From the NCBI GenBank assembly GCA_019634625.1, contig JAHCBA010000018.1, positions 1-64,000 on the forward strand: a stretch of DNA of 64,000 nt. The letters are read 5' to 3'. The stretch is from Verrucomicrobiia bacterium. GTDB taxonomy: Bacteria > Verrucomicrobiota > Verrucomicrobiia > Limisphaerales > CAIMTB01. This document shows positions 5,932-48,904 of this stretch, in pieces. Under the pieces are notes generated by a model. It was not told the origin of the DNA. It did no database searches and saw only the letters and a program-made list of their open reading frames with translations. The stretch's first letter is position 1. Each line of letters begins with the position of its first letter. The position numbers and the translations under genes are program-made.

Positions 5932-6102
5932 CGTTGCGCTGTTTGGCCGATTCGTTGCATGGGCCCTCTCGGGGATTGAGCGTGGTTGTAATCAATGTGA
6001 CGGGAAGGGGTCAAGGCTTGTTGGGGAACTTTTTTCGGCGTATCGCGGGTTGCTGCGGCAGGCCTCGCCCTCGCCAGTTGGAACGGGGAATGGGAGGGAT
6101 TT

Positions 6103-6203
6103 GAAACCTGAAACCTGAAACCTGAAACCTGAGACCTGAGACCTGAGACCTGAGACCTGAGACCTGAAACCTGAAGGCTGAAGGCTGAAGGCTGAAGGGT
6201 GAG
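6103..6203. repeat. Heptamer tandem array (GAAACCT/GAGACCT/GAAGGCT)
   Basis: About fourteen consecutive 7-bp units drifting from GAAACCT through GAGACCT back to GAAACCT and then GAAGGCT. A related array lies at 48479-48590 with the same drift (GAAACCA, GAGACCT, GAGGGCT), so this is a recurring class of simple repeat in the genome. Confidence 0.9.
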
Positions 6204-6206
6204 ATT

Positions 6207-6293
6207 CAGTTTCCACGCGGAGTGGGAGGTGCAGGCACGATCGAGCCTGTCGGGCCGGGTCAAAGGCGACCTTCGAAATGGTGTGCCTGCAGG
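6207..6293. repeat. Element shared with the leader of the 84-bp array
   Basis: This stretch aligns without gaps, at roughly three quarters identity by eye, with 25064-25150, the sequence directly before the 84-bp tandem array. Both begin CAGTTYCCACGCGGARTGGG and end with a GAAAYGG-YRTGCCT segment that corresponds to the start of the 84-bp unit. Confidence 0.7.
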
Positions 6294-22686: not shown

Positions 22687-24732
22687 TCAGCGGGCGACGC
22701 CCCAGGGGCTGAAGATGGCATAGAGGACGAGGGTAATGGCGATGACGCCGATGCCGGCGACGGCGGCGGGTTTGGAGGTTTTGAGGTCGAGTTGGGTGAC
22801 ACGCTTGAATTCGCGGGGCTGGGCCAGGGGTTTGAGGGCGGTGATCACCGCCATCACCAGGATGCAGAGGGCGAAGCAGACGGCCATGCGGTTGATGAAC
22901 TGGAGGCCGGGCACGGTGAGTTTGAGGAGGCCGTAGGCGGCGATGTTGGTGAGCAGGGCGGCGACACCGCACATGGCGGGGGCGCGGCGGACCAGGATGC
23001 CGAAGGCAAACGCGGCGAGGATGCCCGAGGAAATGAAGCCCTGACCCTCCTGGATGATGGTGAAGATGCTGTTGCTGATGCGGGGATTGCCGAGGGCGGG
23101 GGCGAGGAAGACGGCGATCATGGCGAACACCACCACCGAGAGGCGGCCGACGAGGATGATGCGGCCGGTGGGCGCCTGGGGGGCGAGGTGTTTCTTGTAG
23201 AGGTCCATGGTCAGGATGGTGGATGCCGCATTGAGCATGGCGGCGAGGGAACTGACCACGGCACCGAGGAGGGCGGCGAAGACAAAGCCGACCAGGCCGA
23301 TTCCCTGGGGCAGGACATGGCCGAGGAGCTGGGCGAGGGCGGTGTCGTACTTGAAGGCGATCAGCTTTTCGGTGGTGGTCTTCTGGCCCGCCGCCTGGGC
23401 GGCTTCCGCCGCGGCGCGGTTGAAGGCCTCCACCTCGACGGCCCAGTCGGGATGCACGGCGTGCCAGGACTTGTCGTCGGTGGTGAACTGGGGATAGCGG
23501 CCGGGGACAGCCTGGTCGAAGCGGGCCTGGGTGATCGGCAGGACGTAGGCATTGCGCGTCCGCACGGCGGCGGCCGTCGTGGCATCGGGGTACACCGCCA
23601 GGAGATAACGTCCGGAGGGCCAGGCGGCCACGGCCTCGGCGTCGGGGGCAATGGCGACTTCGACGAAGCGGGACTGGGGATTGGCCTTGTGGTAGCGGGA
23701 GAGGACGTTGGCGTTGTCGGAGGCCGCCTCAAGGCGCATGTCGGTCGAGTAGAGGTTGAAGGCGATGATCCCGGGGACGACGATGACGAAGGGGATCAGG
23801 AGCTTCATGAAGGCGGCGAAGACGATGCCTTTCTGGCCTTCGGCGAGGGATGCTGAACCCAGGGTGCGCTGGGTGATGTACTGGTTGAGGCCCCAGTAGT
23901 AGAAATTCGGAATCCACAGGCCCATCAGCAGGGCGGTCCAGGGCAGGACGGCGTCGTCGGCGGGCAGGAACATGTTCATGCGCGAGCCGTTGAGGTCCCA
24001 GAAGCGCTCGATGGCGCCGGCCTCGGGGGCGAGGGAACGGATTTCGACGGCGCCGGTCTGGGCGCTGACGACGGCGGCGGCCTCGGTGGCCATGCCGAGT
24101 TTCTGGAAGGCGAAATACATGACGATGCCGCCGCCAAGAATGAGGGCGCTGCCCTGGAGAAGGTCGGCCCAGGCGCAGGCTTTGAGACCGCCGGCGGTGA
24201 CGTAGAGCATGGCCACGGCGCCGATGACGAGGGCGCCGGTGGAGAGGCTGACTGGAAAGCCGGCCTTGCCGGCGAGGGAACTGATGGTGAGGGCGCCGGA
24301 GTAGGTGACCGCGCCGAGGAGGAGCATGTAGATGAAGATGGTGGCCAGGGCCATGATGGTCCGGGCGGCGGCGTTGTACCGGTATTCGAGGAACTCGGGC
24401 ATGGTGTAGATCCCGGCGCGCAGGAAGTACGGGAGGAATCCGAAGCCCACGATCACCAGGGTCACGGCGGCCATCCATTCGTAGCTGGCAATGGCCAGGC
24501 CCACGTGGCTGGCGGCGTTGCCGCTCATGCCCACGAACTGCTCGGTGGAGATGTTCGCGGCGATGAGGGAGAACCCGATCAGCCACCACTTCAGTCCGCG
24601 GCCGGCCAGGAAGTAGTCCTCGCTGCCCGCTTCGCCGCGGCTCTTCCAGAGGCCGATGGAGACCACCGCCACGATGAAGACCACGAAGATGAGAACATCG
24701 AGCGGAAGGATTCGGAAGCTCTCGGTGCCCAT
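22687..24732 (-). CDS. Sodium/solute symporter (SSS/SLC5 family) with large loop insertion
   Basis: A 681-aa polytopic protein. SSS features include LKWWLIGFSLIAANISTEQF, GMSGNAASHVGLAIASYEW and the family motif YYWGLNQYITQRTLGSASLA. About 13 or 14 helices are likely. Between about residues 335 and 455 lies a hydrophilic stretch of some 120 residues (from STDMRLEAASDNANVLSRYH to FNRAAAEAAQAAGQ) that is not part of the core fold and would face one side of the membrane. Sugars or related solutes are plausible substrates, by analogy with SGLT-like relatives; the actual one is unknown. The 1.3-kb repeat-rich tract upstream must contain its promoter. Confidence 0.9.
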   Translation of the reverse strand: MGTESFRILPLDVLIFVVFIVAVVSIGLWKSRGEAGSEDYFLAGRGLKWWLIGFSLIAANISTEQFVGMSGNAASHVGLAIASYEWMAAVTLVIVGFGFLPYFLRAGIYTMPEFLEYRYNAAARTIMALATIFIYMLLLGAVTYSGALTISSLAGKAGFPVSLSTGALVIGAVAMLYVTAGGLKACAWADLLQGSALILGGGIVMYFAFQKLGMATEAAAVVSAQTGAVEIRSLAPEAGAIERFWDLNGSRMNMFLPADDAVLPWTALLMGLWIPNFYYWGLNQYITQRTLGSASLAEGQKGIVFAAFMKLLIPFVIVVPGIIAFNLYSTDMRLEAASDNANVLSRYHKANPQSRFVEVAIAPDAEAVAAWPSGRYLLAVYPDATTAAAVRTRNAYVLPITQARFDQAVPGRYPQFTTDDKSWHAVHPDWAVEVEAFNRAAAEAAQAAGQKTTTEKLIAFKYDTALAQLLGHVLPQGIGLVGFVFAALLGAVVSSLAAMLNAASTILTMDLYKKHLAPQAPTGRIILVGRLSVVVFAMIAVFLAPALGNPRISNSIFTIIQEGQGFISSGILAAFAFGILVRRAPAMCGVAALLTNIAAYGLLKLTVPGLQFINRMAVCFALCILVMAVITALKPLAQPREFKRVTQLDLKTSKPAAVAGIGVIAITLVLYAIFSPWGVAR

Positions 24733-25063
24733 AGGTGAGGTGGGCGAAGGGTGCCGGACCGGGGCGCCGGGGTCGAGTGCAACGTCGTGGGCTGTCCTGC
24801 GTCGAGCGCATCGCCATGTTGTCGGAGATGCGATCGGTCGAGGAATACGACGAGGGGACCGTCGGGGTCGGGGGCGGAATCGAACAGTGAACGGACTCCG
24901 GGGATGCGCGAAGCCACTTGGCTCCTGTCGATACCGATTCCGATAGCGACCCCGACCCCGATTCCGTTGCCCCTTCCGACACCTCGGAGATGCGCCCTAC
25001 TGCGTCGAGCGCATCTCGGTTTCTTGCAGCAGGCCTCGTACTCGTGATCGTGATCGTGATCGC
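24733..25063. other. Upstream region of the symporter gene, degenerate simple repeats
   Basis: This 331-bp stretch shows no gene. It contains degenerate hexamer-like runs (GATTCCGATAGCGACCCCGA around 24936, and CTCGTGATCGTGATCG after GCAGGCCTC at 25029). The symporter promoter should lie in its first part, but I could not identify one with confidence. Confidence 0.5.
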
Positions 25064-25150
25064 CAGTTCCCACGCGGAATGGGAGGTTCGGGCAGGATCG
25101 AAGCGATCGGGCCGGACCCAAGGCGGAGCTCGAAACGGCATGCCTATGCA
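25064..25150. repeat. Leader element of the 84-bp array (second copy of the 6.2-kb element)
   Basis: Gap-free match to 6207-6293. Its last 20 bp (GAAACGGCATGCCTATGCA) coincide with the first, degenerate unit of the tandem array, suggesting that the array grew by amplification from the end of this element. Confidence 0.7.
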
Positions 25151-26012
25151 CGCGAGTTGCGTCCATTTCAGGTGAAGGGATGCGGTGCGGGAGGGGAGGG
25201 TTGGGCAAATGAGCTGAAATGGCGTGCATGTGCACGTGAGTTGCGTCCATTTCAGGTGAAGGGAAGCGGTGCGGGACGGGAGGGTTGGGCAAATGAGCTG
25301 AAACGGCGTGCATGTGCACGTGAGTTGCGTCCATTTCAGGTGAAGGGAAGCGGTGCGGGAGGGGAGGGTTGGGCAAATGAGCTGAAACGGCGTGCATGTG
25401 CACGCAAGTTACGTCCATTTCAGGTGAAGGGATGCGGTGTGAGAGGAGAGGGTTGGGCAAATGAGCTGAAACGGCGTGCATGTGCACTTGAGTTGCGTCC
25501 ATTTCAGGTGAAGGGAAGCGGTGCGGGAGGGGAGGGTTGGGAAAATGAACTGAAATAGCGTGCATGTGTACGTGAGTTGCGTCCATTTCGGGCGGAGGGA
25601 TGCGGTGCGGGACGGGAGGGTTGGGCAAATGAGCTGAAACGGCGTGCATGTGCACGTGAGTTGCGTCCATTTCAGGTGAAGGGATGCGGTGTGAGAGGGG
25701 AGGGTTGGGCAAATGAGCTGAAATGGCGTGCATGTGCACGTGAGTTGCGTCCATTTCAGGTGAAGGGAAGCGGTGCGGGAGGGGAGGGTTGGGAAAATGA
25801 ACTGAAATGGCGTGCATGTGTACGTGAGTTGCGTCCATTTCGGGCGGAGGGATGCGGTGCGGGACGGGAGGGTTGGGCAAATGAGCTGAAACGGCGTGCA
25901 TGTGCACTTGAGTTGCGTCCATTTCAGGTGAAGGGAAGCGGTGCGGGAGGGGAGAGTCGGGCAAATGAACTGAAACGGCGTGCATGTGCACGTGAGTTGC
26001 GTCCATTTGAGG
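25131..26012. repeat. Tandem array of eleven 84-bp units carrying a palindrome
   Basis: The marker TGCACG-x-GAGTTGCGTCC occurs at 25147, 25231, 25315, 25399, 25483, 25567, 25651, 25735, 25819, 25903 and 25987 (with small variants), always exactly 84 bp apart. Each unit contains an outer inverted pair CTGAAATGG / CCATTTCAG about 42 bp across and an inner pair CGTGCA-TG-TGCACG, followed by a G-rich spacer (GGTGCGGGAGGGGAGGGTTG). Units differ by scattered substitutions, not by length. Because 84 is a multiple of three, frames stay open on both strands; the minus-strand translation is a 28-residue repeat beginning MDATHVHMHAVS, but I do not regard it as a gene. Confidence 0.95.
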
Positions 26013-26053
26013 GGCAGGGGGAGCGGGAAGGGGTGGAGGATCTGGGATGACGG

Positions 26054-27205
26054 TCAGTTCAGCGACTTGGTGGAGGCGTGGCGGTCGATGCGGGCGGCGA
26101 AGTGGTCGAGGGGGAGGATCTCGTCGGCGGCGCCCATGCGGATCGCTTCGCGGGGCATGCCGAACACGACGCAGGTGGCCTCGTCCTGGGCGAGGGTGCG
26201 GGTGCCCGCCTGTTTCAGGCGGAGCATGCCGGCGGCGCCGTCGGCGCCCATGCCGGTGAGCAGGACCGCCAGCGCGTCGGGGGCGGCGCCGGCCTTGAGG
26301 GCCGAATCGAAGAGCACGTCCACGGCGGGTCGCTGATGGTGCACGGTCGGTCCGTCGCTGAGGAACGCGACGTAATGCGAACCGACCCAGCGAACGAGGA
26401 GATGGCGCCCGCCCGGAGCGACGAGGACGCGTCCGGGCTGGATGCGGTCGCCGTCCTGAGCCTCGCGGACCTCGAGGGTGCAGAGTTGGTTGAGGCGTTC
26501 GGCGAAGGCGGCGGAGAAGTAGGCCGGGATGTGCTGGACGACACAGATGCCGGGGAGGTCGGAGGGCAGGCGGGTCAGGATCGACTTGAGGGCCTCGGTT
26601 CCACCGGTGGAGGCGCCCATGAGGATCAGGGTGCGGGGCGGGTAGGTGCGGGGCGGGCGCCCGGACTCCGGGACTGGGGGGATGCCGACGGCGGGGTGGC
26701 GGGGTGACGGGATGGGGGCGGGGACCGGGACAGCGACAGGATTGGCCGGGAGAGGGGAGACTGGCGCGGGGGTGGGGGCGGCGGGTTGGGGCGGTTGGGA
26801 GCGGCGCCGATGGCGGGACAGGGCGGCGGCCTTGATCTTGGCGACCAGTTCGGCGGTATCGGCGACGGTGTAGGCGTTGCCCGGTTTGGCGACGACATCG
26901 ACGGCGCCGGCCTGAAGGGCTTCGAGCGCCTGGGAGGAACCCGACTGGGTGAGGGAACTCATGATCACGACCGGCATCGGCCGGTGCTGCATGATCCGCT
27001 TGAGGAAGGTCAGCCCGTCCATCCGGGGCATCTCGATGTCGAGGGTGATGACGTCGGGATCGAGGGCGAGGATCTTGTCGCGGGCGGCGTAGGGATCGAC
27101 GGCGGTGCCGACGACCTCGATGTCGGGGTCACGGCCCAGGTTGTCAGCCAGCATGGTTCGCACCAGGGCGGAGTCATCGACGATCAGCGTCCGGATGCGT
27201 GACAT
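26054..27205 (-). CDS. cheB: Chemotaxis response regulator protein-glutamate methylesterase
   Basis: A 383-aa two-domain enzyme that removes methyl groups from, and deamidates, chemoreceptors. The receiver domain (residues 1-125) has the acidic pocket and the phospho-Asp in VITLDIEMPRMDG, plus the switch segments VVIMSSLTQSG and VVAKPGN. A proline/alanine-rich linker of about 60 residues follows. The catalytic domain has LMGASTGGTEALKS (Ser), VVQHIPAYFSAAFAERLN (His) and LLTGMGADGAAGM (Asp), the complete triad. It is the last gene of the cheR-cheD-HDOD-cheB series and starts 46 bp after the HDOD stop. The linker is longer than in enteric CheB. Confidence 0.96.
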   Translation of the reverse strand: MSRIRTLIVDDSALVRTMLADNLGRDPDIEVVGTAVDPYAARDKILALDPDVITLDIEMPRMDGLTFLKRIMQHRPMPVVIMSSLTQSGSSQALEALQAGAVDVVAKPGNAYTVADTAELVAKIKAAALSRHRRRSQPPQPAAPTPAPVSPLPANPVAVPVPAPIPSPRHPAVGIPPVPESGRPPRTYPPRTLILMGASTGGTEALKSILTRLPSDLPGICVVQHIPAYFSAAFAERLNQLCTLEVREAQDGDRIQPGRVLVAPGGRHLLVRWVGSHYVAFLSDGPTVHHQRPAVDVLFDSALKAGAAPDALAVLLTGMGADGAAGMLRLKQAGTRTLAQDEATCVVFGMPREAIRMGAADEILPLDHFAARIDRHASTKSLN

Positions 27206-48405: not shown

Positions 48406-48904
48406 GCGGGGAAGGGTGGGCCGACCCAAGGGGGAAGACGAGCGTGGAAGGGGGGAGGGGGGAGGGGGAGGGCTGAGACCAGAAATCAGAAACCAGAAAC
48501 CAGAAACCAGAAACCAGAAACCAGAAACCAGAAACCTGAGACCTGAGACCTGAGGGCTGAGACCTGAGGGCTGAGGGATGAGGGATGAGGCTGAAGGTTG
48601 TATTGAGGATTCGCGCTCCGCTACCGGGAGGCGCCGCCGGGAGTCCCCCTAAACCCCTTGGCGTTCGAGGGTTGAATGGGTTGCTCAAAATTCTGGGGAA
48701 ACTGCTTGCACCCACAACCTGTTGTGCCAATCTCGGTCCCGCTCCCCAACCCAAGGGGTATTTTCCATCGCCAGGCATCGCGATGGGGAGGTGTCCCAAT
48801 CGGGCGCGGGAGCGGAGGATCGGCCCCCTGGAGGAGGAGTCAACCACGGGTGGGCTATCCATGACGCCAGGAACCCAGCTCCAACCGCCCAGACCCATCC
48901 CGCA
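48406..48904. other. Divergent spacer upstream of nrdJ with heptamer array
   Basis: About 500 bp separating divergent genes. It contains the heptamer array and then a non-repetitive stretch (48600-48900) that must hold the nrdJ promoter. The nrdJ frame can be read upstream to 48722, but that extension lacks homology. No riboswitch-like conserved element for cobalamin was identified by eye. Confidence 0.5.
48479..48590. repeat. Heptamer tandem array (GAAACCA/GAGACCT/GAGGGCT)
   Basis: About sixteen 7-bp units: first GAAACCA repeated about seven times, then GAAACCT, GAGACCT and interspersed GAGGGCT and GAGGGAT. The same family as the array at 6103. Confidence 0.9.

Follow-up and report, generated by a model that had tools for sequence, protein, structure and literature searches.

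An 84-bp tandem array next to cheB and a dispersed family of 46-bp palindromes in a Verrucomicrobiia genome

The 84-bp tandem array that separates cheB from a symporter gene in this Verrucomicrobiia genome is one cluster of a dispersed family of 46-bp palindromic dyads, with about 108 copies genome-wide at about 58 loci, of which 18–20 are clusters; since a number of the clusters are located at contig ends, and units match between some of these ends, the locus count is probably a slight overestimate and the real arrays probably extend further. We judge the chances to be roughly even that the array arose when one member of a lineage-specific REP/REPIN-like family was tandemly amplified in place together with its flank, with the intact copies of the family being 3′-UTR hairpins. 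What had looked like an isolated oddity in the window (the whole 64,000-nucleotide stretch that was analysed) is thereby placed in a catalogued family whose consensus is clear and whose copies follow a position rule.

The dispersed palindromes

The genome searched is a single draft of 6.74 Mb in 88 contigs, with the array as the query. The original prediction had proposed looking for single copies of the repeat unit elsewhere in the genome, and the palindrome is indeed present singly, but it is not the 84-bp unit that is dispersed; what the loci have in common is a dyad of 46 bp whose centre, CGTGCATATGCACG, hardly varies and whose consensus is AAATSGMCNNAAACTT-CGTGCATATGCACG-AAGTTTNNGKCSATTT. 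In the single copies the half-site reads AAAT-(G/C)-G-(A/C)-C-N-N-AAAC-(T/G)-(T/G)-CGTGCAT, with positions 2–3, 8, 11–12 and 17–23 conserved at 88–100% and positions 5, 7, 9, 10, 15 and 16 variable. There are 68 exact occurrences of the 14-bp core and none of a reversed control, and when two mismatches are allowed the core GCGTGCATRTGCACG is found 137 times against 10 for the control; searching the genome with a covariance model built on the 46-bp dyad yields 150 matches, counted per strand.

The copies within sibling clusters are spaced at 95, 102–104, 104/124/125, 110, 114/136, 116, 120/121, 123/124, 134, 145/146, 150/151 or 160 bp, the cluster with the 95-bp spacing including a third copy after another 244 bp, and the spacers in each cluster are private to it and purine/pyrimidine-skewed. 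The constant unit length remarked on for the 84-bp array holds there, but it does not extend to these siblings. Because sibling periods range from about 95 to 160 bp and the spacers are private, the 84-bp register of eight helical turns is not a feature of the family, and the suggestion that each palindrome is presented on the same face of the helix is not supported. Taken modulo 10.5 bp, 18 spacings show no clear clustering of phase (Rayleigh p ∼0.10, uncorrected), and helical register as a design rule was rejected on account of the varying sibling periods.

One cluster looks old: at L226:988-1244 (G000:C4:142287-142543) four diverged palindromes follow one another in irregular steps of 76, 67 and 68 bp. 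We also note that array units match across contig ends, between the start of C11 and the end of C39 and between the end of C28 and the start of C63, which suggests that each of these pairs of contigs may join through an array that the assembly does not span.

A strict search for solo half-sites returned only members of arrays, members of decayed clusters and one match at a contig edge. Abutting transposon ends were considered as an origin of the dyad and rejected, the solo half-sites sought being essentially absent.

The array next to cheB

Features of the array and its surroundings are collected in Table 1.

Table 1. Coordinates of the array, its neighbours and element A in the window
Feature	Position	Strand	Remarks
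Element A, intact copy	6207-6288		
Sodium:solute symporter family gene (PF00474)	22687-24732	minus	
Open frame, judged spurious	24591..26006	minus	overlaps symporter gene start in another frame
Truncated element A copy fused to unit 1	25064..25145	plus	junction GAAACGG(C/T)(A/G)TGC
Unit 1 palindrome, hybrid	25123..25168		element A supplies the left arm, the palindrome family the right; 8/21 pairs
Tandem array	25126..26019		84-bp period, 10.6 copies (TRF)
Palindromes 2-11	25207..26008		46 bp each, 84-bp start steps, 38-bp spacers; starts 25207, 25291, 25375, 25459, 25543, 25627, 25711, 25795, 25879, 25963; 12-14/21 pairs complementary
Array-private spacer, one example	25253..25290	minus	pyrimidine-rich and G-poor in the cheB-sense reading
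C-rich gap of 45 bp	26009..26053	minus	between the cheB stop and the palindrome that cheB transcription would reach first
cheB, response regulator and CheB methylesterase (PF01339)	26054-27205	minus	

Eleven units in exact 84-bp steps were originally predicted, and eleven palindrome centres are found at exactly that spacing; TRF likewise reports a period of 84 bp with zero indels, and both flanking genes are as described. The start had been placed at 25064, which is too far to the left, as the first ∼62 bp are part of a separate dispersed element. The units were said to contain nested palindromes, and palindromic they are, but the palindrome is longer than claimed, extending over 46 bp around a conserved core of 14 bp, which is seen only against the sibling loci. 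The proposed outer pair CTGAAATGG/CCATTTCAG is whole in units 2 and 8 but in no others, and the inner CGTGCA...TGCACG is exact in six units of the array. On the sense strand an array unit has 23 C against 4 G within 42 nt.

Pairwise comparison of the units shows a single difference between units 6 and 9 and two to four among units 2, 3, 5 and 8, whereas unit 11 loses homology past its palindrome and has 21–29 differences from every other unit. The relationships within these two groups are nested duplications of the kind that unequal exchange or slippage would give, and growth of the array was likely neutral, by way of unequal exchange. A rival explanation, to which we would assign about the same chance of being right as of being wrong, is that the array is a functionless neutral minisatellite, formed when a copy of the palindrome underwent slippage or unequal crossing-over. 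It is favoured by the higher-order duplications, including the two differences that separate units 3, 5 and 8, by the weak predicted folding of the array units (−16 to −18 kcal/mol, z ∼−2.5), by the existence of other arrays of every size, many at contig ends, and by the absence of the array after cheB in the congeners, where other sequence or genes are found (flagellin in two); it leaves unexplained why ∼18 independent loci with different spacers amplify the same palindrome, and why the family lies at the 3′ ends of genes.

The left end of the array is occupied by element A, a separate dispersed family with at least 15 loci and dozens of copies in the genome (the two in Table 1 and also L045–L058). 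An element A copy consists of a number of 6–7 bp simple repeats (such as CTGAGAC, CGTAAT or CGTGAT), after which the element usually starts, followed by CAGTTCCCACGCGGAATGGGAGGTCCGGGCAGGATCGAACCCATCGGGCC...GGTGTGCCTGCGGGTTCGAGGACG...CCGCCCTTCGGGCTGAGTACGAG. The original prediction held that the array was seeded from the end of the element at 6.2 kb; that copy is an intact element A and not a single array unit. A truncated copy is indeed fused to unit 1, but none of the 16 other copies examined enters a palindrome, these running on into GCGGGTTCGAGGACG, which is element A's own 3′ part, and most arrays have no element A. Heptad repeats of the kind that precedes element A (TGAAACC, CTGAAGG, ACCAGAA, CTGAGGG) are present in the window at 6102-6202 and 48478-48594.

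Coding of a repetitive protein by the 471-aa frame on the minus strand can for practical purposes be dismissed. It owes its existence to a period, 84 bp, that is divisible by three; the periods of most siblings are not, and the overlap with the symporter start is out of frame; a protein-coding repeat was accordingly ruled out as an effect of the period. A CRISPR array was also ruled out, since the spacers are copies of one another and not unique, and Rfam 15 gives no match above the gathering score anywhere in the window.

Arm pairing, gene ends and transposases

The original prediction had proposed looking for covariation between the palindrome arms, and it is found among the single copies but not among the array units. 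Changes in the arms are matched on both sides in 49 cells against 27.4 ± 3.6 after shuffling (0/500), and in the single copies (n = 37) 11.7 of 16 outer pairs are complementary against 10.0 shuffled (0/2000), although the copies are related by descent, so that these shuffle tests are inflated and the p-values uncorrected; the array units tested alike are the better control, and with one unit per array the same test shows no covariation (8.8 versus 9.05 shuffled). Ten copies are near-perfect 46-bp palindromes with differing arms, pairing at 20 or 21 of 21 positions, and as RNA the perfect copies are predicted to fold into hairpins with energies of −36 to −39 kcal/mol (z ∼−10). Covariation could arise without selection, through correction of imperfect palindromes at the time of replication.

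Conservation of C8, A11, A12, A2 and A3 outside the core suggests that there may be sequence recognition besides hairpin formation, and it leaves room for a protein that would read the dyad. One possibility is that a nucleoid protein, gyrase or an unknown dimer binds the dyad as duplex DNA, the arrays being multi-site clusters. The letters conserved in both arms cluster at ∼0–6, 12 and 21 bp from the centre, and the array units hold the half-site consensus though their arms no longer match, both of which agree with binding. We nonetheless regard this explanation as unlikely, because array periods keep no constant helical phase, a binding site would not need perfect complementarity at otherwise free positions, and there is a strong bias of the copies to gene 3′ ends.

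This bias is evident when the copies are placed relative to genes. With gene ends taken from a home-made finder, a simple three-periodic model trained on this genome, palindrome sites lie a median of 43 bp past a facing stop codon but 160 bp from a start codon. The copies are intergenic, the sole call inside an open reading frame (L113) lying upstream of the likely true start; 28 loci are between tandem genes, four between convergent and four between divergent genes, and 23 of the 28 sites between tandem genes are nearer to the upstream stop. The segment from stop codon to palindrome has a C-minus-G skew of 0.31, compared with 0.02 in other 3′ flanks (p = 0.004, uncorrected), and the skew exceeds 0.2 at 62% of loci versus 19% of control 3′ flanks; roughly one site in three has no C-rich leader, and at several the leader is G-rich. 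The hairpin is not followed by a U-tract (T makes up 15% of the 12 nt past the palindrome, not counting the stem's own ATTT), and it is therefore not a standard intrinsic terminator. The neighbouring genes are functionally unrelated (tyrosyl-tRNA ligase, nickel insertion protein, aminotransferase, chemotaxis receptor, flagellin-like), so the loci do not constitute a regulon.

Among the readings first offered, a structured transcript fits best, though as an account of the dispersed family and not of the array. Under our preferred reading of the intact copies as 3′-UTR hairpins, a copy would form the 3′ portion of the mRNA made from the gene before it and would fold into a 21-bp hairpin, which would block 3′-to-5′ decay and/or mark ends made by Rho; Rho could load on the C-rich stretch that is often present between stop codon and hairpin. 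A Rho RNA-binding domain is encoded by two genes (L215, at G000:C2:140785, and G000:C24:55472). In the 84-bp array the palindromes would have decayed and the copies been multiplied by unequal exchange or slippage, such that the array may do little beyond the copy nearest cheB. If the hairpins do have such a role at mRNA 3′ ends, whether protective or end-defining, deletion of single copies would reveal the effect directly.

It is also possible, although we lean against it, that the dyad is a selfish miniature mobile element, moved by some enzyme that would act on its hairpin in single-stranded DNA, its location at gene ends then reflecting only where an insertion is least harmful. Such an element would account for ∼108 copies here and none in four congeners, and for the lack of half-sites on their own outside the contig-edge and decayed cases; Y1 transposase (Y1_Tnp) genes are expanded, with 30 here and 3–8 in the congeners, and REPINs provide a precedent (PMC3116915). 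However, none of the 30 Y1 genes has a palindrome copy within the ∼2 kb examined around it, and an association with RAYTs (REP-associated tyrosine transposases) was rejected on this basis; the dyads contain no unpaired GTAG or CGTC tag, GACG/CGTC occurring only within the paired arms and variably so. We consider it doubtful that this is a new class of mobile palindrome, a perfectly symmetrical 46-bp dyad at ∼58 gene ends of one species that would be moved by an enzyme unrelated to known REP transposases and kept as an RNA or single-stranded-DNA hairpin, its 14-bp centre being fixed while the arms covary freely.

Among the Y1 genes, one of 326 aa (L187–L201, L203; G000, e.g. C19:23689-24669) is present in ∼17 copies that are 90–94% identical. 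Homology between these copies stops at the start and stop codons, with unrelated flanks, and a 9-bp hairpin, CCGGCGACG...CGTCGCCGG, lies within the beginning of the coding sequence.

Distribution and comparison with known repeats

Judged from the genomes compared, the family is lineage-specific and confined to one species. The exact 14-bp core is absent from all 57 relatives, including four congeners, and the covariance model of the dyad has no match in those congeners or in the other relatives. A 19-letter pattern searched in 84,980 species genomes matches only two Hyphomicrobium contigs; both matches come from one conserved context, have the core alone in common with the family, and are unrelated and chance-like. 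Viral contigs contain no family match, and spread by viruses was rejected on this basis. A search for an analogous family with another core in congener G002 (arms of at least 16), covering a small sample of 243 kb, found only two unrelated palindromes. Being limited to one species, with copies that range between the perfect palindrome and the decayed array, the family could shed light on how repeats of this kind originate, how they spread in the absence of an obvious transposase and how arrays grow.

Several known systems resemble these palindromes in part. As with intrinsic terminators, a hairpin follows soon after the stop codon, but here there is no U-tract and the core sequence is fixed. 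The BIMEs of Escherichia coli are intergenic clusters of palindromes with spacers, sometimes in many copies, in which REP orientations alternate; our clusters likewise combine palindromes and spacers between genes, but each unit is itself symmetrical and no sequence is held in common with BIMEs.

REPs tagged with GTAG or CGTC have an unpaired tetranucleotide at one end of a 5–13 bp stem and lie between tandem or convergent genes, near the upstream 3′ end; they are probably transcribed, and some are lineage-specific (Di Nocera 2013, PMC3733652). The present family shares the short palindromes, the tandem or convergent genes and the position close to where the upstream gene ends, but has a stem of 21 bp, full symmetry and no end tag. 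In the broad sense of REP, the copies are repeated, extragenic, palindromic and numerous, and their 3′-end location, rarely between divergent genes, is also REP-like.

A REPIN is made of two REPs in inverted orientation that form one hairpin with compensatory changes. In Pseudomonas fluorescens SBW25, REPINs with such changes also occur in tandem clusters that take in flanks (Bertels and Rainey 2011, PMC3116915). Here too the unit is a symmetrical palindrome with conserved and compensating variable parts, extragenic and in places repeated as near-identical tandem units together with flank. The compensatory changes are those of the single copies, and solo halves are essentially absent. In contrast to SBW25, it is the centre that is conserved, the halves abut without a spacer, no transposase gene is nearby, and clusters reach eleven units rather than four. 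The REP-like position, the symmetry, the covariation of the arms and the clusters that include flanks, in conjunction with the lack of a tag or transposase link, lead us to file these palindromes as an untagged, lineage-specific REP/REPIN-like family.
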